Positions 18,953-26,909 of a DNA stretch of 64,000 bases are shown piece by piece. Source of the DNA: Aquificaceae bacterium (lineage in GTDB: Bacteria; Aquificota; Aquificia; Aquificales; Aquificaceae); contig JALWVU010000065.1 in assembly GCA_027079305.1 (NCBI GenBank), forward strand, positions 1 to 64,000. The letters are read 5' to 3'. A model generated the notes under the pieces. It was given only the letters and a program-made list of their open reading frames with translations, made no database searches and was not told where the DNA came from. The number at the start of each line of letters is the position of its first letter. The first letter of the stretch is position 1. The translations under genes were made by a program, and so were the position numbers.

Positions 18953-19762
18953 ATGAGGATAGCGGATCTAATATACGGGAAGCCCAAAGTAGAGAAGAGA
19001 AAGACGGATCCCGCAGTTTTGAAAAAAGCTCAAAAGGTAATGCTCAACATACTTATAGAGGTTCACAGGATATGTGAAAACCACGGGTTGAAATATTGGT
19101 TGGACAGTGGAACCCTTCTGGGTGCGGTTAGACATAAAGGTTTCATACCTTGGGATGATGATCTCGATATATGCATGCCTCTCGAAGACTACCACAGATT
19201 TTTAGATATAGCTCCGAGGGAACTCCCCGACCACATGTTCCTTCAAACCAAAGAGTTAGAGAGAAAGTTTCCCAGATACTACGCTAAGGTAAGAAGCAAT
19301 AAAGGAAGGATACTGGAGGAGAGGGAAGTTGTAAAAATAAAGCGTGGACAGGATATAGGATACAACACTGGCTTATACATAGACATATTCCCCTGCATAA
19401 CCGTAAAGAAAGAAAAGGTGAATCTTTATAGAAAGATCATGGGTGCCGTGGACAGGATCAGAAAGGTGGCTGACATATACTATCTGATTGAAAACCTCTT
19501 CAGCTTAACGGATAAGATTATGCATTCCGGATGGACGGATAAGGATCTTATGGTGGTAAGAAGCGTGCGGTTTCCGGAAAAGGAGTTCTGCGTGCCTCTG
19601 GACAGCCTCTATCCGTTGAAGCTCTACGATTTTGAGGGACATAAGTTCTGGGGACCTAAGGATTACGATACCTATCTCAGAATCTTATACGGCAACTACA
19701 TGGAACTTCCTCCCGAGGAAGAGAGAATAAACCATGCTTACATACTTGAGGTCTATGAATAG
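18953..19762 (+). CDS. LicD family phosphotransferase
   Basis: A 269-residue LicD-type protein. KYWLDSGTLLGAVRHKGFI is followed by PWDDDLDICM at about residues 59-68, the family's metal-binding core on a nucleotidyltransferase fold. LicD proteins transfer phosphocholine, and probably other phospho-groups, from a CDP-activated donor to surface glycans. The next gene, convergent and overlapping by 10 bp, encodes a cytidylyltransferase fused to a PLP enzyme that could supply such a donor. Neither a ribosome-binding site nor a good -10 box precedes the ATG. Codon use is A/T-richer than in the flanking core genes, suggesting transfer. Confidence 0.87.
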   Translation: MRIADLIYGKPKVEKRKTDPAVLKKAQKVMLNILIEVHRICENHGLKYWLDSGTLLGAVRHKGFIPWDDDLDICMPLEDYHRFLDIAPRELPDHMFLQTKELERKFPRYYAKVRSNKGRILEEREVVKIKRGQDIGYNTGLYIDIFPCITVKKEKVNLYRKIMGAVDRIRKVADIYYLIENLFSLTDKIMHSGWTDKDLMVVRSVRFPEKEFCVPLDSLYPLKLYDFEGHKFWGPKDYDTYLRILYGNYMELPPEEERINHAYILEVYE

Positions 19763-21555
19763 ATTTCTTCAACGCTTTTAATAAAGTAGTCATTATCTTT
19801 AGAATCTCTTATCGCCACTCTGATAAACTCTCCTTTCACTCCCTTCTTACTCGAAAGATCCTTAACAAATATATCCTTCTCCCAGAGCATTCTGGAAACA
19901 AAGTCCTTTGCCCTCAAACCTTCCTTAAGCTCACACATAAAGTAGTTAGCCTCAGAAGGAATCACTCTCAAGATAGGAAGCTTTTTGAGGTTTTTGTAAA
20001 ACCTTTCTCTTTCTTCCCTCACCTTATCGCATGCCTTCCGATACTCATCTACATACTTTGGAAATATCTGGAGAAAAAACTCGCCGAAGGAGTTTATATT
20101 CCATACGGGGAGCCTACCCCTTAGGACCTTTAACAACTCCCTGTTAGAGGTGGCAAGCACCCCCAATCTCAAACCGGGAACACCGTAGCTTTTACTTATA
20201 CTTTTTACAACTATAAGGTTCGGAAATTCATACAGTATATCCTTCCTTATCAGACTCGCTTTATCTCCTTCACACGAGAAATCAACAAATGATTCATCGA
20301 GAACAAGATATTTGTTTCTTCTTTTCAGTTCCTCCAGCAGATACAGGATCTCATTCCTGTTTATATAGTTTCCGCTCGGATTGTCCGGATTTACAAGAAC
20401 TATGGTTCCCGTAAGCTTAGCTAACCTCAAAAGATCTTCTACACCGTATCTGTAGTCCGGGCTATCCGAAGTATAAGCTATAACATTTTTAAATCTCGAG
20501 GGATACTCCTCGAAAGTTGGAAGAATCACACCCACAGGTTCTGGAAGCAGTCCGGGCAAGGAGGCTATAAGTTCTGAAGCGCCGTTTCCTACAAGGATAT
20601 CATCCTCATCCACTCCGAAGAGCATTCCCGCAAGTAGGTTCTGAACCTTCAGTGTAGAGGGATACTGGGAGGAGAGGGTGTCAAAGCTCGCTTTTATCTC
20701 CTCATACATCTTCTTGGTAGGAAAATAGGGATTTACCAGATAACAAAAATCCTTTATCTTGGGGAACCTCCAGTAGCCCCCGTATCTTTCCTTTACTTTC
20801 TTCAGTTTAAGCTCCGGAGATGTGGCGAAGACAACCTCTGCGTTCTTAATGTCCTGGAGAGTATCTATCTCATACCACTTTTCGCCTTCCAGTCTCAAAG
20901 CTTTTACGTTTGCCTTTTCGAGGAAGGAAATAACCCTCAGCACAAGCTCATAGTAAGCGTTTTTTCCCATAACTTCCACATAAGCTTTCAGAAAGGGCAG
21001 GTAAGTATCCCTTATGAACTCTTTTGAGAACTTGTATATGTTCACAGTCTTATAGTATTCATCCGCCTCCTCGTAATCAAAGAATTCTTTGGGTATGAAG
21101 GCGGTTATATTGTCTTCCTCATCTACCTTTACCACCGTTCCGTCCATCCAAGGCTGATACTTATCTACAACAGCAAGAACCTCCCTTCTGTCATTAAGAA
21201 GTTTTGTGAGTATACTCCTTTCAAAGAAAACGTCGCTCTCCAAGAGAATACTGTCCTCCTCTAAAAGGAAGTCCCTTGCCAAGTATAGAGAGTAAATATT
21301 GTTAGTAGAGGCATATTCTTTGTTGTATACGAACTCGAAGTTAAGTTCAGGAAACATTTCTCTAACGAAGGACTCCAGCTTCTCATGGGCGTGACCTGTC
21401 ACAAGTATGACTCTCTCTATCCCTGCTTTCTTCAAAGCTTCTAATGCATTCTCTATTATGGTCCTACCGTTTATAGAAACCATACACTTAGGCTTGTTCC
21501 TCGTTATATCTCCGAGTCTCCTCCCTATACCGGCGGCGAGTATAACAGCCTGCAT
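19753..21555 (-). CDS. LicC-like cytidylyltransferase fused to a PLP-dependent aminotransferase/decarboxylase
   Basis: A 600-residue two-domain enzyme. Residues 1-240 are a sugar-phosphate/choline-phosphate type nucleotidyltransferase: ILAAGIGRRLG, NKPKCMVSINGR, LLESDVFF and EGEKWYEIDT. Residues about 255-600 are a fold-type I, HisC/CobD-like PLP enzyme: VGNGASELI, NPDNPSGNY, LDESFVDF and the lysine motif SISKSYGVPGLRLG, ending with IRVAIRDS. The architecture recalls PntC-type enzymes that activate aminoethylphosphonate; the CobD-like C-domain would equally suit making phosphoethanolamine from phosphoserine. No PEP mutase is in the window. The product is probably a CDP-amino-alcohol or CDP-phosphonate used by the adjacent LicD. 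Confidence 0.85.
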   Translation of the reverse strand: MQAVILAAGIGRRLGDITRNKPKCMVSINGRTIIENALEALKKAGIERVILVTGHAHEKLESFVREMFPELNFEFVYNKEYASTNNIYSLYLARDFLLEEDSILLESDVFFERSILTKLLNDRREVLAVVDKYQPWMDGTVVKVDEEDNITAFIPKEFFDYEEADEYYKTVNIYKFSKEFIRDTYLPFLKAYVEVMGKNAYYELVLRVISFLEKANVKALRLEGEKWYEIDTLQDIKNAEVVFATSPELKLKKVKERYGGYWRFPKIKDFCYLVNPYFPTKKMYEEIKASFDTLSSQYPSTLKVQNLLAGMLFGVDEDDILVGNGASELIASLPGLLPEPVGVILPTFEEYPSRFKNVIAYTSDSPDYRYGVEDLLRLAKLTGTIVLVNPDNPSGNYINRNEILYLLEELKRRNKYLVLDESFVDFSCEGDKASLIRKDILYEFPNLIVVKSISKSYGVPGLRLGVLATSNRELLKVLRGRLPVWNINSFGEFFLQIFPKYVDEYRKACDKVREERERFYKNLKKLPILRVIPSEANYFMCELKEGLRAKDFVSRMLWEKDIFVKDLSSKKGVKGEFIRVAIRDSKDNDYFIKSVEEIYS

Positions 21556-21567
21556 ATTTCTGAACGC

Positions 21568-21574
21568 TTATAAT
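21568..21574. promoter_or_regulatory. Shared -10 region of a divergent promoter pair
   Basis: TTATAAT reads as TATAAT on the plus strand, eight bases before the aminotransferase ATG at 21583. On the minus strand the same bases read TTATAA, twelve bases before the fusion-gene ATG at 21555. Neither start has a ribosome-binding site. The two genes are separated by only 27 bp. Confidence 0.5.
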
Positions 21575-21582
21575 TGTATTTC

Positions 21583-22728
21583 ATGAAACCGTTCAAAGGA
21601 GAGAGGATATTCACTCCCGGCCCGGTGGAATTACAGGATAGGATAAGAGAGGTTCTCAGCAGGCAGATAATACACCACAGAACTCCGGAGTTCAAGGAAG
21701 CCTTCCTCGAAACGAGGGAACTCTTCAAACAGCTCGTCGATTGCAAGGAAGACAACTTCATCTTCTTTGCCTCCTCGGGAACCGGTGCTATGGAAGCCTC
21801 GGTTCTGAACTTCTTTGAAGAGGGGGATAAAGTCATAGCTGTAGTCGGAGGTAAATTCGGTGAGAGATGGGCGGAGCTCGGGAGGAAATATAAGCTCCAA
21901 GTGGTAGAACTCGAAGTTGAGTGGGGGAAAAGCGTAGATCCCGATGCTGTGGAGAAACTTATAAAGGAGAACCCAGATTGCAAAGGTGTTCTCGTTCAGG
22001 CTTCCGAAAGCTCCACGGGAGCTTACCACAATGTAAAGGCTCTCGCTGAGATCACAAAAGATACGGGTGTTCTCCTGGTGGTGGACGCCATAACCGCCCT
22101 CGGTGTATACAACATGAAGCCCCACCAGTGGGGCCTCGACGTGGTCGTGGGAGGGTCCCAAAAGGCCTTCATGCTACCGCCCGGTCTATCCATGCTCTGG
22201 TTTTCAGAGAAGGCCAAGGAGAGACTCACCGACAGATCCTATTACTTCGATGTCAAAGAAGAGCTAAAGAAACAGAAGGAAGGGCAGACCGCTTTCACAC
22301 CCGCCATCAGCCTGATCCTCGCCTTAAGAGAGTCCCTCTCTATCCTGCTGGAGGAAGGTATGGAAAAGGTAGAGAGAAGATACAGACTTATGTCCGAAGG
22401 CATGAAGAGGGCTATAGAAGTTCTTGGACTGAAAATCTTTCCCGAAAACCCTTCCATATCCTTAACCACCGTGATACCTCCCGAAGGTATAGATCCCGAA
22501 AATCTCAGAAGGAGCATGCTCAAACTCGGTGTAAGGGTGGCAGGCGGACAGGGCAAACTTAAAGGAAAGATCTTCAGGATATCCCACATGGGTATGGACA
22601 TAATGGACATGCCGGTGGTCCTGTCCGCTTTAGAGCTTTCCCTGAAGTCTATCGGACACACTTTCGGACTTGGTGCGGGTGTGGGAGAGTATCTCAAGGC
22701 GGTTCACCCGGGCGTTGAAGATGGATAA
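21583..22728 (+). CDS. Class V PLP-dependent aminotransferase (alanine-glyoxylate/serine-pyruvate type)
   Basis: A 381-residue fold-type I enzyme of the AGXT/soluble-hydrogenase-subunit family. Features are FTPGPVEL at the N-terminus, HHRTPEF, the phosphate-binding FASSGTGAMEA, LVVDAITALGV and the Schiff-base lysine in GGSQKAFMLPPGL. Such enzymes transfer amino groups between serine or alanine and glyoxylate or pyruvate and can serve glycine and serine synthesis in autotrophs. It resembles general aminotransferases more than PhnW. The ATG at 21583 is preferred over TTG 21574 because TATAAT lies eight bases ahead. The glycosyltransferase start overlaps its stop by 8 bp. Confidence 0.88.
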   Translation: MKPFKGERIFTPGPVELQDRIREVLSRQIIHHRTPEFKEAFLETRELFKQLVDCKEDNFIFFASSGTGAMEASVLNFFEEGDKVIAVVGGKFGERWAELGRKYKLQVVELEVEWGKSVDPDAVEKLIKENPDCKGVLVQASESSTGAYHNVKALAEITKDTGVLLVVDAITALGVYNMKPHQWGLDVVVGGSQKAFMLPPGLSMLWFSEKAKERLTDRSYYFDVKEELKKQKEGQTAFTPAISLILALRESLSILLEEGMEKVERRYRLMSEGMKRAIEVLGLKIFPENPSISLTTVIPPEGIDPENLRRSMLKLGVRVAGGQGKLKGKIFRISHMGMDIMDMPVVLSALELSLKSIGHTFGLGAGVGEYLKAVHPGVEDG

Positions 22729-23512
22729 GCTTCCTCTCTCGGTTGCGATAATAGCATACAACGAAGAAGACATAATAGGTAAAACTCTCGAAGCTGTAAG
22801 GGACATAGCTTCCGAAATAATAGTTGTGGACTCCCACTCAACGGACAGGACGAGGGAGATAGCAGAATCCTATGGAGCAAAGGTGTATGTGGAGGAATGG
22901 AAAGGCTACGCTCAGCAGAAGAACTCCGCCTTGGAGAAGTGCACTCAGGAGTGGATCCTCTTTCTGGATGCGGATGAGATTGTTTCGGAAGAGCTGAAAA
23001 GAAGCATAAAAGAAGAGCTGAAGGACCCTCAGGCGGACGGATACATGATAAACAGGAAGACATACTACCTGGGCGGTTTCTTAGAACATGTATGGCAACC
23101 AGAGTGGAGACTCAGGCTCGTTAGGAGGAGTGCGGATCCGGTATGGAAGGGGGATATCCACGAGGTCCTGCTCATAAAGGGAAGAACACGGAAACTGAAG
23201 GGCGACCTCTACCACTTTCCTTACAGAGGACTTAAAAACCAAGCCTTGAAAGGTGTAGAGTTTGCCCAGATCGATGCTAAGGAGAAATTTAAAGCTGGGA
23301 AGAAGGTTTCCTTTACGAGGGATATCTTGCTCAGGCCCCTTTGGACCTTCTTCAAAGAGTTCTTCCTCAGAAAAGGCTTCCTCGAAGGCAGAAGAGGACT
23401 TATCCTGTCTCTGATGGCTTCCTATTACACGTTTCTGAAGTACTCCTTCCTATACGAGCTAAAACTAAAAGCGGACATAGGAGATAGGCTTTGGCGGAGA
23501 GAGGAAAGGTAA
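22721..23512 (+). CDS. Family 2 glycosyltransferase, WaaE/KdtX-like
   Basis: A 263-residue GT-A enzyme: SVAIIAYNEEDIIGKTL, IVVDSHSTDRT, WILFLDADE and a region with HEVLL. The EEWKGYAQQKN stretch with DADEIVSEEL is characteristic of the lipopolysaccharide-core beta-glucosyltransferase group (WaaE/KdtX). It would add a sugar to the inner core at the cytoplasmic membrane. ATG 22721 overlaps the preceding gene by 8 bp; a longer frame from 22670 would run deeper into that gene. It leads a glycan pair with the next gene. Confidence 0.88.
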   Translation: MDKLPLSVAIIAYNEEDIIGKTLEAVRDIASEIIVVDSHSTDRTREIAESYGAKVYVEEWKGYAQQKNSALEKCTQEWILFLDADEIVSEELKRSIKEELKDPQADGYMINRKTYYLGGFLEHVWQPEWRLRLVRRSADPVWKGDIHEVLLIKGRTRKLKGDLYHFPYRGLKNQALKGVEFAQIDAKEKFKAGKKVSFTRDILLRPLWTFFKEFFLRKGFLEGRRGLILSLMASYYTFLKYSFLYELKLKADIGDRLWRREER

Positions 23513-24384
23513 GCGTAATAATTCCTGTGCACAACGGAGAGAAATTTCTCAAAAGAGCTATAGAAACCGCTCTGTATCAAACCGCTCCACCCCTTGAGGT
23601 TATCGTAGTGGACGATGCCTCGACCGACAGAACTCGGGAGGTAGTCGGGTCTATAAAAGATCCCAGGATTAAATATCTTAGAAACGATGTTAATAGAGAG
23701 AGAGCCTACACACGGAACAGAGGTGTGGAGGTGGCAAGGGGCGATTTCATATTCTTCTTAGACTACGACGACGAGTGGAAGGAAGACTACCTGGAAAGCT
23801 CTCTGGAATATCTCGAAGGCGGATACGACGTGGTTTACTCCTTTCCGAGGGAATTCATAGACGGGAACGGAAAGGTGATCAGGGTGTCGAGAAAGCCCCT
23901 TCCAAAGGATACGGGCGCGATTATCTTCAGCTCGCTCATAGGATATCCCTCCGCCACATCCATGAGAAAAGACATCTTTACGGGATACAGGGACGAGTAT
24001 ATTCCCCGTGAGGATTGGGAACTTTTCATAAGATCCTTCCTTGAAGGTAGAAGTATAAAAGTGCTCGACAATAGAAAGGTTCTGATAAGAGAGCACGAGG
24101 GTAGGACAAGCAGAAGTTTGAAGTTCATGCACTCTACACTAAAACTCTATAAGGATTACAAAGATAAAGTTCCCGAGGAGTATCTACCTCAGCTTACCCT
24201 ACACACCGCACTTATATGCCTTCGGTTCGGCAACCTGCCCCGCGGGTGGTTTCTATTTTTTAAATCGATCGCCCGCAAACCTTCTCTGCTAAAAAATTCC
24301 AGGAACCTGATAAACGTTCTAAAGTGGGGATTCCGCGTAGACAGGTTTTTCAATTACCTTCAAAGGCCTTCTCCCCGAACTTAA
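23491..24384 (+). CDS. Family 2 glycosyltransferase
   Basis: A 297-residue GT-A fold enzyme with VSVIIPVHNGEKFLKRAI, VIVVDDASTDRT, RGVEVARGDFIFFLDYDDEW and a C-terminal EDWELFIRSF acidic region. The metal-binding DxD appears as DYDD. Donor and acceptor sugars cannot be inferred. It starts with TTG, 22 bp inside the previous gene, implying translational coupling. Its 3' end overlaps the convergent O-antigen-ligase-like gene by 35 bp. It belongs to the surface-glycan block between thyX and the phosphohexomutase. Confidence 0.88.
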   Translation: MAERGKVSVIIPVHNGEKFLKRAIETALYQTAPPLEVIVVDDASTDRTREVVGSIKDPRIKYLRNDVNRERAYTRNRGVEVARGDFIFFLDYDDEWKEDYLESSLEYLEGGYDVVYSFPREFIDGNGKVIRVSRKPLPKDTGAIIFSSLIGYPSATSMRKDIFTGYRDEYIPREDWELFIRSFLEGRSIKVLDNRKVLIREHEGRTSRSLKFMHSTLKLYKDYKDKVPEEYLPQLTLHTALICLRFGNLPRGWFLFFKSIARKPSLLKNSRNLINVLKWGFRVDRFFNYLQRPSPRT

Positions 24385-25513
24385 ACATGAACAGGTAAAG
24401 GGGAAGGAGAGCATCCCAGAAGAAGGTAAATATGGAAGCTACCGAGTGAACAAGCAGAGGGATAAAGGCTATCAAATAAACAACCTCCCTCCCGTTCGAA
24501 AGCTTAACGCTCAGGAACTTCTTAAAAGCGAGCAGGAATATGAGCAGTATGGATAACAGGCCTACAATCCCTCTTTCTATAAGCTCGGACACGAATATGA
24601 TCGACTCGTATCTCTGCCAGCTTTTCGGACTCTTCTCGTGGGGCAGGTAAAGGCCTGACCTTATCCCGTGACCTATGAGCAAGTTGAGGTATTTTCCCTC
24701 CTTCCAGTCGCTTTTTATTATCTTGATGCCGTCAAGCATTATGTAGTATCTGTGTGAGCTTATAGCGTTCATAGCCCACGTATCGAGCTTCCTCTTGCCC
24801 AGAATAAGCTCGTTGAGGGTCCTAAACCTGATGTCCTTCTGGGATAGATAGTAGTATGCCCCCGCTCCTCCCAGGAGCAAGGTGACCAGAGTGAGGGCGA
24901 GGAATTTGGATGATATGAGGCGGTTTCTACGCAGTGTAAAGAGCACGAGAAGGAAAACTATCGGGATGGCAAGAAGGTAAGACCTCCTCTGGGACAACAC
25001 TACCACACCCAGGAACAGCAGAGACAAAACAAGGTAAAACACCGCATCACCGCTGAGTCTACCCCTGAGTTTTACCTCCCTGACACCTATCAGGAAGGAA
25101 GCGAAAGAGAACAGGGTGTAGAACTGGGCGGTTTCAAAGACACCTCCCCAGAAAATCTTGTAGGAGCCGGTTTTTGTCCAGTTGTAGAATAGCAGAGGCA
25201 TTCCGAGTATTCCCAGAAGAACGAAGAGGTAAGGTATTTTCGTTAAGGCTCTCCTTGCCTCCTTTCCGCTGACCTTAGATAGGTAAATCAGCTGAAAGAG
25301 GCCCTCGTTAAGACTTTTTACAAGCATTTTAGGAAAGTAGATGGCTGTGGACAGCACTGTGGTTCCCACAAAGCCTGCAAGAGGCAGTGTTAGAAGGCCA
25401 CCCTCTACCTTTCTCTTTATAAGAAGCATGAGCAGACCCAGTATCACGAACCCCTCGTATACGCTTATGGAGAGGAAAGAAAACAGAACAAGCAGGACCA
25501 GATAGGAGGACAT
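24350..25513 (-). CDS. O-antigen ligase/polymerase-like membrane protein
   Basis: A protein of about 387 residues with roughly ten membrane helices and one larger periplasmic loop at about residues 240-320, containing the Arg and His residues typical of Wzy/WaaL-type enzymes (SSHRYYIMLDG, IGHGIRSG). Such proteins join an O-polysaccharide to lipid A-core at the outer face of the inner membrane. ATG 25513 (MSSYLV) is chosen because TATAAT lies seven bases upstream on this strand; an in-frame ATG at 25531 overlaps the divergent gene's own start codon. Ligase rather than polymerase is a guess based on there being one copy here. Confidence 0.75.
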   Translation of the reverse strand: MSSYLVLLVLFSFLSISVYEGFVILGLLMLLIKRKVEGGLLTLPLAGFVGTTVLSTAIYFPKMLVKSLNEGLFQLIYLSKVSGKEARRALTKIPYLFVLLGILGMPLLFYNWTKTGSYKIFWGGVFETAQFYTLFSFASFLIGVREVKLRGRLSGDAVFYLVLSLLFLGVVVLSQRRSYLLAIPIVFLLVLFTLRRNRLISSKFLALTLVTLLLGGAGAYYYLSQKDIRFRTLNELILGKRKLDTWAMNAISSHRYYIMLDGIKIIKSDWKEGKYLNLLIGHGIRSGLYLPHEKSPKSWQRYESIIFVSELIERGIVGLLSILLIFLLAFKKFLSVKLSNGREVVYLIAFIPLLVHSVASIFTFFWDALLPLYLFMFKFGEKAFEGN

Positions 25514-25516
25514 CCG

Positions 25517-25526
25517 TAAAATTATA
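25517..25526. promoter_or_regulatory. Overlapping divergent leaderless promoter core
   Basis: On the plus strand TAAAAT (25517-25522) ends seven bases before the phosphohexomutase ATG at 25530. On the minus strand TATAAT (25526-25521) ends seven bases before ATG 25513 of the ligase-like gene. The two hexamers overlap by two bases, and neither gene has a ribosome-binding site at usable distance. Confidence 0.5.
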
Positions 25527-25529
25527 TCC

Positions 25530-26909
25530 ATGATCAAGTTCGGAACAGACGGATGGAGGGCGGTAATAGGGGAGGGATTTACATATGAGAACGTCAGAAA
25601 GGTGGCCCGGGCTCACGCAAAGGTTTTAAGAGAGAAAAACCTGAGGAGAATCCTTATAGGCTACGACTGGAGGTTCTCCTCCGAGAACTTCGCAAAGCAG
25701 GTCTACGATGTCCTCGTTTCCGAAGGCCTTGAGGTGAAGCTAACGAGGAGAGCCTGCACGACACCCATGGTCTCTTTCGGTGTCAAGTATATGGGCTTCG
25801 ACAACGGTATAATGATAACCGCTTCCCACAATCCGCCCGTATACAACGGCTACAAGATAAAGGAGAAGTTTGGAGGATCCGCCACGCCGGAGTTCATAAG
25901 GGAGGTTGAAGCCCACCTGAATAAGGTATCGGGAGATCCCGCTCCATCCGCGGAACCTGAGCTTCTGGACGTGGAGGAGGGATACCTTTCGAAAGTAAGG
26001 GAGCAGGTTAGTCTGGACATTTTCAGGGAAAAGGATCTGAAGATAGTTCACGATGCCATGTATGGAACTTCCTCCGGATTGCTCTCAAAGGCTCTCGAGG
26101 AGACAAGAGTTCAGGTTTTAAGTATGAGAAGTTACAGGGATCCTCTCTTCGGGGGCCGTCCTCCCGAACCGGTGGAGAAGAATTTAAAACCTCTTATGGA
26201 GAAGGTCAGGGCCTCGGGAGCTGATCTGGGTGTGGCTAACGACGGAGACGGGGACAGGATAGCCCTTGTGGACGAAAAAGGAAACTATGTAAACTCTCAG
26301 CTCATATACGTGATACTCCTGCTCCACCTCGTCAGGCATAAAAATATGAGGGAAGGAGTGGTGGTAAAAACTGTATCTACCACCTACCTGGCGGACAGGA
26401 TCTGCAGGGCGGAGGGGATAGAACTGAGGGAGGTGCCGGTAGGCTTCAAAAACATAAACGAGATAATCCTCAAGGAGAAGGTCATATTCGGCGGGGAGGA
26501 GAGCGGAGGATACGGCGTCCCCTCATTCCTGCCTGAGCGGGACGGCCTCATGTCCGCCCTATTTGTTATAGAGAGCTTGCTTTTAAAAGGAGTGAGCCTT
26601 TCCCAATTCATAGAAGAAATTTTCAAGGAGTTCGGCAGTGCCTACTATAGGAGGGTGGACTTTCCTGCGGACGAGAAGGTCAAGGAGAAGCTCAAGGCGT
26701 TGATAGAGAATCCTCCCTCTCAGCTGAAGGGAAGAAAAGTTGATAGAGCTCTGACCATAGACGGCTTGAAGCTGATTTTTGAGGATGAGAGCTGGCTCCT
26801 TTTTAGAGCTTCCGGAACTGAACCCCTCATAAGGGTTTACGCGGAAGCTCCCACCGAAAGGGAACTTTCCGAGCTGGTAGAGTCCGGCACCTCTCTCCTG
26901 AGTGTATAA
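25530..26909 (+). CDS. Phosphoglucomutase/phosphomannomutase family protein
   Basis: A 459-residue alpha-D-phosphohexomutase. MIKFGTDGWR opens the protein. The phosphoserine loop TASHNPP carries catalytic Ser99. NDGDGDR is the metal-binding loop, GGEESGG the sugar-binding loop and RASGTEPLIRV the phosphate-binding loop. It interconverts hexose 1- and 6-phosphates and would feed nucleotide-sugar synthesis for the neighbouring glycan genes. Glucose versus mannose (or glucosamine) specificity is not evident. A leaderless promoter is likely, as noted for the shared core at 25517-25526. Confidence 0.92.
   Translation: MIKFGTDGWRAVIGEGFTYENVRKVARAHAKVLREKNLRRILIGYDWRFSSENFAKQVYDVLVSEGLEVKLTRRACTTPMVSFGVKYMGFDNGIMITASHNPPVYNGYKIKEKFGGSATPEFIREVEAHLNKVSGDPAPSAEPELLDVEEGYLSKVREQVSLDIFREKDLKIVHDAMYGTSSGLLSKALEETRVQVLSMRSYRDPLFGGRPPEPVEKNLKPLMEKVRASGADLGVANDGDGDRIALVDEKGNYVNSQLIYVILLLHLVRHKNMREGVVVKTVSTTYLADRICRAEGIELREVPVGFKNINEIILKEKVIFGGEESGGYGVPSFLPERDGLMSALFVIESLLLKGVSLSQFIEEIFKEFGSAYYRRVDFPADEKVKEKLKALIENPPSQLKGRKVDRALTIDGLKLIFEDESWLLFRASGTEPLIRVYAEAPTERELSELVESGTSLLSV

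Follow-up and report, generated by a model that had tools for sequence, protein, structure and literature searches.

A stretch of 64,000 nucleotides from an Aquificaceae bacterium (positions 1 to 64,000 of contig JALWVU010000065.1, assembly GCA_027079305.1; hereafter the window) carries a licD-like gene next to a gene that joins, in a single chain, an N-terminal cytidylyltransferase to a C-terminal pyridoxal phosphate (PLP)-dependent enzyme. On balance, we consider it likely that this fusion is a two-step synthase of cytidine diphosphate (CDP)-ethanolamine, and that LicD then transfers phosphoethanolamine to a lipopolysaccharide (LPS)-type glycan. Judged from sequence, the fusion is probably a phosphoserine decarboxylase / phosphoethanolamine cytidylyltransferase, and its neighbour probably a phosphotransferase that shifts a phospho-aminoalcohol from its CDP form onto a glycan. 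An earlier reading of the same DNA (the original prediction) had proposed that one protein makes phosphoethanolamine, or else a phosphonate amine, and converts it to a CDP form for LicD. The first of these ideas, while still a prediction, is well supported by the placement of the C-terminal domain (C-domain) with CobD and SMUL_1544, by PntC-like glutamates in the N-terminal domain (N-domain) and by the pairing with LicD. The second is not borne out here, as no phosphoenolpyruvate (PEP) mutase is found above cut-off and the C-domain is not of class V (PhnW-type).

The gene pair and the two domains of the fusion

The licD-like gene (18953..19762, plus strand) encodes 269 residues, which carry the motif GFIPWDDDLDI and match PF04991 (E 1e-41) with 143.8 bits, above the curated Pfam cut-off of 22.6. 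The fusion gene (19753..21555, minus strand; 600 residues) converges on it, with a 10 bp overlap between the 3′ ends. Its N-domain, a LicC/PntC-type cytidylyltransferase, covers about residues 1-250 (20806..21555, minus strand) and matches NTP_transferase at residues 3-181 (PF00483, E 1e-13), while its C-domain, a fold-type I PLP enzyme of the CobD/SMUL_1544 group, covers about residues 256-600 (19756..20790, minus strand) and matches Aminotran_1_2 at residues 315-594 (PF00155, E 1e-27). These matches uphold the initial description of a LicD beside a cytidylyltransferase-PLP enzyme fusion, and the lysine motif SISKSYGVPGLRLG and the C-terminal IRVAIRDS are present as first described. The arrangement of an N-terminal cytidylyltransferase and a C-terminal PLP decarboxylase-type domain on a single chain is the FrbH-type architecture. 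Relatives carry the same fusion end to end, at 42-65% identity across Aquificota and about 48-54% in other phyla, and it is therefore no artefact of chance or reading frame. An AlphaFold2 model, for which 32 homologous fusions were the input, is confident for both domains (pLDDT 91, pTM 0.86) and weak at residues 203-213. Residue conservation was counted over 82 homologous fusions, across which both active sites are intact and invariant.

The closest solved relatives of the N-domain are PntC-AEPT (6pd1) and LicC (1jyk), each at E 2e-19, in agreement with the LicC-like nucleotidyltransferase originally proposed. The signature GxG(T/S)RX4-8PK is found in LAAGIGRRLGDITRNKPKCM, with R13 as its arginine and K23 as its lysine, and is loose at two spots: position 12 has R in place of T/S, and at position 22 most fusions have T (74/82) and a few have P (7/82). 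R13, K23, E106, D108, E203, E229 and D231 are invariant in all 82. R15, K25, E104 and E196 of PntC align to R13, K23, E106 and E203 (each 82/82), and PntC K153 aligns to K156, which is less strictly kept (51/82). In PntC, E104 and E196 touch the primary amine of 2-aminoethylphosphonate (AEP), and their LicC counterparts are the smaller D105 and D192 (PMC6697681). The match of E106 and E203 to the PntC glutamates thus favours a small primary-amine substrate, for example phosphoethanolamine, over phosphocholine.

The C-domain belongs with CobD and SMUL_1544, and apart from HisC, by tree, sequence and fold, as its CobD-like character in the original prediction implied. Of the curated models, CobD (TIGR01140) scores 168 bits and HisC (TIGR01141) 150 bits, both under their equivalog cut-offs (290.6 and 276.6 bits, respectively). 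The nearest solved relative by sequence (E 1e-42), and also by tree and Foldseek, is 6oux, titled 'Structure of SMUL_1544, a decarboxylase from Sulfurospirillum multivorans', an enzyme whose substrate we take to be L-serine-O-phosphate. CobD (1lc5) is the next characterised enzyme, at E 5e-24. A maximum-likelihood tree unites the fusions with SMUL_1544 on a branch with support of 100/98, which CobD and 3ftb join next, and the HisC sequences, including the organism's own, are split by 100/98 from the branch holding all four. The fold comparison with VIA-align places 3ftb, CobD and SMUL_1544 at the top (Z 37-38) and HisC at 34-36, a small gap.

The residues of the active site tell the same story. 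The Schiff-base lysine is K455 (codon 20191-20193), and K455, R463, W485, N486, N488, K565 and R579 are invariant in 82/82 fusions, while I487 varies. The resulting W485-N-x-N, present in every one of the 82, reads WNIN in SMUL_1544 and 3ftb and WSVN in CobD; W485 is equivalent to W246 of CobD, a position at which the HisC sequences compared carry Tyr, Phe or Pro. K216, R224, R323, R337 and W246 of Salmonella CobD align to K455, R463, K565, R579 and W485. In the sequences compared, K565 is a family signature of the fusions.

The proposed pathway and its rivals

We infer the steps of the pathway from homologues, and the substrate, the order of the two steps, the acceptor and the linkage are to be read conditionally throughout. 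O-phospho-L-serine would bind PLP at K455 as an external aldimine and lose CO2 to give O-phosphoethanolamine. In the N-domain, with CTP-Mg, the phosphate of phosphoethanolamine would attack the alpha-phosphorus of cytidine triphosphate (CTP), helped by R13 and K23, to yield CDP-ethanolamine and pyrophosphate. LicD would then move phosphoethanolamine from CDP-ethanolamine to a sugar of an LPS-type glycan made by the adjacent glycosyltransferase locus. A precedent for the first step comes from Campylobacter jejuni, where Cj1436 forms ethanolamine phosphate by decarboxylating L-serine phosphate, for use in the capsule (PMC11800397). The genome as a whole, estimated to be 99.9% complete, fits such a source. 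It has no match to the phosphatidylserine decarboxylase family, which makes phosphoethanolamine by that route unlikely and means that phosphatidylethanolamine, if any, is made by another route. It has a separate HisC (C52:91150-92223), no PEP mutase above cut-off (the best PF13714 match has 15.7 bits against 31.5) and no CobS (cobamide synthase) that could be found. Together these remove the HisC, PEP-mutase phosphonate and cobamide readings; the simplest remaining origin for a phospho-amine is the decarboxylation of phosphoserine.

Several points weigh against this pathway. No member of the fusion family has a known activity, and the donors and acceptors of LicD proteins are not readable from sequence. 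SMUL_1544 and the fusions are joined through branches of great length (2.5 and 3.5 changes per site), which leaves the exact sister relation unsure, although the separation from HisC is still well supported. R323 of CobD is replaced by the invariant K565 in the fusions, a conservative change and the sole one among the CobD key residues. Fold type I PLP enzymes readily swap decarboxylation and transamination. Finally, two loci with adjoining phosphonate genes (L034 and L057) have no class V AEP transaminase nearby, and some C-domains of the family may therefore be transaminases.

A different order of the same two reactions is rather unlikely but live. In FrbH, 2-amino-4-phosphonobutyrate is cytidylylated first and decarboxylated by the C-terminal domain afterwards (PMC8976061), and this order makes a route from CDP-serine to CDP-ethanolamine a live alternative: the N-domain would make CDP-serine (CMP-phosphoserine) and the C-domain would decarboxylate it. 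That the domains are always fused in the family examined is consistent with such a relay. However, Cj1436, which with SMUL_1544 is closest in function, uses the free phosphoamino acid (PMC11800397), SMUL_1544 presumably does likewise, and E106 and E203 match PntC, whose substrate AEP has no carboxylate.

The main functional rival, which we regard as unlikely, is a transaminase reaction like that of Cj1437. The C-domain would form an amino-alcohol phosphate such as serinol phosphate, and the N-domain would convert it to CDP-serinol or a similar donor for LicD. Cj1437 does turn dihydroxyacetone phosphate into (S)-serinol phosphate in the capsule pathway (PMC11800397), and HisC-type transaminases are the next closest group to the C-domain. 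Against this, the C-domain groups with decarboxylases, apart from HisC, in the tree. Among standalone enzymes in 248 Campylobacterales genomes, the only good matches are 406-residue presumed SMUL_1544 orthologues (E 4e-44), the remainder being at E 3e-26 or weaker. In a search of these genomes for tree references, no Cj1436/Cj1437 capsule pair was identifiable below 1e-22.

It is very unlikely that the C-domain forms AEP and the N-domain CMP-AEP, as a functional analogue of PntC-AEPT. PntC-AEPT is the best PDB match of the N-domain, and a PEP mutase and/or a phosphonopyruvate decarboxylase adjoins the fusion in four loci (L033, L034, L041 and L057). These are, however, just 4 of 77 loci outside the Aquificaceae, three of them form a group within a broader spirochaete clade in which no phosphonate genes accompany the remaining fusions, and the nearly complete genome studied here yields no PEP mutase above cut-off. 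Phosphonate use, nested as it is among fusions without such genes, looks secondary. A cobamide side-chain enzyme (CobD, or a CobY-CobD fusion) making aminopropanol phosphate or ethanolamine phosphate is scarcely credible: CobD is the best NCBIfam model for the C-domain and SMUL_1544 itself serves norcobamide synthesis, but the N-domain is LicC/PntC-like and not CobY-like, the partner is LicD in 6/6 genomes, and the lack of a cobamide synthase gene in the genome effectively refutes the idea. Least of all can the C-domain be a plain histidinol-phosphate aminotransferase in place of a missing HisC, as the original prediction had allowed; its 150-bit match to the HisC model stands beside a true HisC elsewhere in the genome (339 bits, cut-off 276.6), the fusion is absent from 58/64 relatives, and this candidate was rejected.

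Distribution, surroundings and the wider family

The fusion is patchily distributed, with 6/64 Aquificaceae genomes and 8/136 across the phylum carrying it. LicD occurs in exactly the same six of the 64 Aquificaceae genomes, and is the immediate neighbour of the fusion in 6/6. By a naive estimate, the odds of two identical 6-of-64 sets would be about 1 in 75 million, a figure that shared ancestry raises. The pair is convergent in G000 (the genome under study), G015 and G022, and in tandem in G058, G060 and G061. It lies in three settings: a glycosyltransferase locus (G000, G022), a region of RseP/NfeD-type membrane-protease genes (G015), and a stretch in which the pair is followed by an MscS-like gene (G058, G060, G061). 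The same partners between differing flanks indicate that the LicD-fusion pair travels as a unit, and it behaves as an accessory cell-surface cassette.

In the window, a divergent class V aminotransferase gene (21574..22728, plus strand) adjoins the fusion, and next come two glycosyltransferase family 2 genes, so that the adjacent glycosyltransferases of the original prediction are confirmed. The first, GT2a (22670..23512, plus strand; PF00535 and synteny), accompanies the class V aminotransferase in the majority of genomes in the genus, those lacking the fusion included, and is likely a core or surface glycan enzyme. The second, GT2b (23491..24384, plus strand; PF00535, E 2e-35), is beside the fusion also in G022 and some relatives. 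An O-antigen-ligase-like gene had also been proposed. A polytopic membrane protein is indeed encoded there (24350..25537, minus strand), and G022 (43%) and G009 (56%) have homologues in the equivalent position, but its Wzy_C match is weak (PF04932, 26.8 bits, under the cut-off of 31.7) and the ligase label stays tentative; it is a candidate ligase or polymerase of the same locus. A phosphomannomutase/phosphoglucomutase-family gene follows at 25530. Within the genus, the stretch from the class V aminotransferase through GT2a to this last gene is largely kept, whereas the other side of the aminotransferase varies by genome, with different open reading frames replacing LicD and the fusion where these are missing. 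A changing flank beside a kept stretch marks a variable surface-glycan locus.

The class V aminotransferase was weighed as a phosphoserine-supplying part of the cassette, but it is kept beside GT2a without the fusion too and is therefore not part of it. Its best PDB matches are 2dr1 and 1iug, followed by serine/alanine-glyoxylate and PucG-type enzymes, and it is also close to BhcA; a phosphoserine aminotransferase is possible from these similarities. Elsewhere in the genome, a second LicC-like nucleotidyltransferase gene (C55:182934-183674; L003 1531-2802) adjoins genes for a CDP-alcohol phosphotransferase, a HAD phosphatase and a glycerophosphodiester phosphodiesterase-like protein, and this locus is probably a separate phospholipid headgroup route.

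Beyond the Aquificaceae, a scan of GTDB genomes gave at least 495 candidate stretches encoding relatives, of which the best 80, those closest to the Aquificaceae proteins, were kept; many are short contigs, and neighbour counts are thus lower bounds. The fusions among these 80 come from Bacteroidota, Spirochaetota, Bacillota, Verrucomicrobiota, Fibrobacterota and Campylobacterota, and the two domains are always joined in the family examined. The original prediction, which saw a new route in a thermophilic autotroph, understated its reach, since the fusion is widespread in other phyla, and its architecture has a precedent in FrbH (PMC8976061). LicD lies within the fetched flank in at least 28 of the 77 loci outside Aquificaceae. 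Where a next gene was available (75 non-Aquificaceae loci), it is octopine-dehydrogenase-like (PF02317) in 24, OCD/mu-crystallin-like (PF02423; ornithine cyclodeaminase) in 15 and a S-adenosylmethionine (SAM) methyltransferase in 5. A PF02317 representative matches octopine dehydrogenase at E 8e-36; the methyltransferases were not recognisable as phosphoethanolamine methyltransferases via PDB or NCBIfam. Enzymes in both the PF02317 and PF02423 families form, or reduce, the imines that arise between amines and keto acids, and N-carboxyalkylation of the ethanolamine amine is hence a natural guess. One such product, N-[(R)-1-carboxyethyl]ethanolamine phosphate, is a constituent of a Proteus mirabilis O-polysaccharide (PMC9630907). 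The order fusion-methyltransferase-LicD, found in Sulfurimonas (L029) and on a Gloeothece plasmid (L159), suggests N-methylated products up to phosphocholine.

From these neighbours a broader view can be drawn, which is plausible yet more tentative than the pathway itself: the fusion may stand at the centre of a modular pathway, widespread and so far undescribed, from serine to surface-glycan decorations, with the output set by the next gene. If so, the bare version of the Aquificaceae would give phosphoethanolamine, a methyltransferase as next gene (L029, L159) would give N-methylated ethanolamine or phosphocholine without choline uptake, and a PF02317- or PF02423-like next gene (39/75) would lead to an N-carboxyalkyl-ethanolamine phosphate, for instance the N-[(R)-1-carboxyethyl] form of the Proteus O-antigen.

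Some individual loci merit description in their own right. In the Gloeothece verrucosa plasmid (L159, 7793-13436), glycosyltransferases, the fusion, a SAM methyltransferase and LicD lie together, a candidate for de novo phosphocholine or methyl-ethanolamine decoration in a cyanobacterium. In termite-gut Spirochaetaceae (L034, 6087-10800; L057, 1430-5890) the fusion is beside a CTP_transf_like-PEP mutase fusion and a phosphonopyruvate decarboxylase, and the CobD-like domain may here have become an AEP-forming enzyme. More distant is the nucleotidyltransferase-PLP fusion (33% identity) of the Priestia megaterium plasmid pBM700 (L156, 5534-13638), whose neighbours are a pair of ATP-grasp genes, a gene for an AAC(3)-type acetyltransferase and a second gene for 1-deoxy-xylulose-5-phosphate reductoisomerase; the whole resembles a cluster of the fosmidomycin/FR-900098 type that includes a resistant copy of the target. 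Another distant fusion, on a Rahnella sikkimica plasmid (L157, 8716-19623) and with a similar one in Erwinia rhapontici plasmids, is followed by CDP-alcohol phosphatidyltransferase, HAD phosphatase, MaoC, SDR, ATP-grasp and MFS genes, an apparently undescribed small-molecule cluster.

Immune recognition, phage binding and membrane charge are all influenced by phosphoethanolamine and phosphocholine on the bacterial surface. The routes to them known so far draw on external choline or on ethanolamine from phosphatidylethanolamine. If the proposed pathway is correct, one cytosolic enzyme leading from phosphoserine to CDP-ethanolamine would add a third, available to autotrophs and to bacteria that have no choline. 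Gut and environmental bacteria commonly carry the fusion, which could account for surface decoration in many of them with no import of choline or ethanolamine. In plasmid records its annotation is 'aminotransferase class I/II-fold PLP-dependent enzyme' or similar, and with labels so generic, assigning a function would re-annotate at least hundreds of genes, many of which lie in glycan loci. Known decorations whose genes have yet to be explained, N-carboxyethyl-ethanolamine phosphate among them, could then be traced to a gene source by direct test.

Relation to known systems

The architecture is not new in kind, with FrbH and PntC-AEPT as precedents. What seems not to have been described, as far as the open literature searched goes, is the fusion family itself, its association with LicD and its modular neighbourhood; that search found no description of the family, which is weak evidence of novelty as most subscription journals fall outside it. 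FrbH is a single working enzyme made of a nucleotidyltransferase domain and a decarboxylase (PMC8976061). By that description, the order and kind of parts are the same as here; however, FrbH acts on 2-amino-4-phosphonobutyrate for the secreted antimalarial FR-900098, whereas the fusion of the window has no PEP mutase above cut-off in its genome and is partnered by LicD in a glycan locus. The PntC-AEPT protein Tde1415 (6PD1/6PD2) resembles the fusion in layout, size, its related N-domain and its amine-contacting glutamates (E104/E196, corresponding to E106/E203), but its C-domain is a class V AEP transaminase where that of the fusion is CobD-type class I/II, and no PEP mutase passes the cut-off here.

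SMUL_1544 is the closest solved relative of the C-domain, and the same reaction is predicted for both. It is annotated as threonine phosphate decarboxylase-like, within a norcobamide cluster (PMC7755780). Unlike the fusion, it is stand-alone, belongs to a cobamide operon and has no cytidylyltransferase domain, and the two are about 29% identical. Cj1436 and Cj1437 likewise make ethanolamine phosphate and serinol phosphate for surface glycans (PMC11800397), but the product is amide-linked to glucuronate by an ATP-dependent ligase, with no CDP form or LicD. The lic pathway shares with the proposed one a CDP-activated small amine, transfer by LicD and a related cytidylyltransferase (1jyk, E 2e-19). 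It differs in that LicC has D105/D192 where the fusion has E106/E203, and in that lic imports and phosphorylates choline, whereas here the amine would come from phosphoserine inside the cell.

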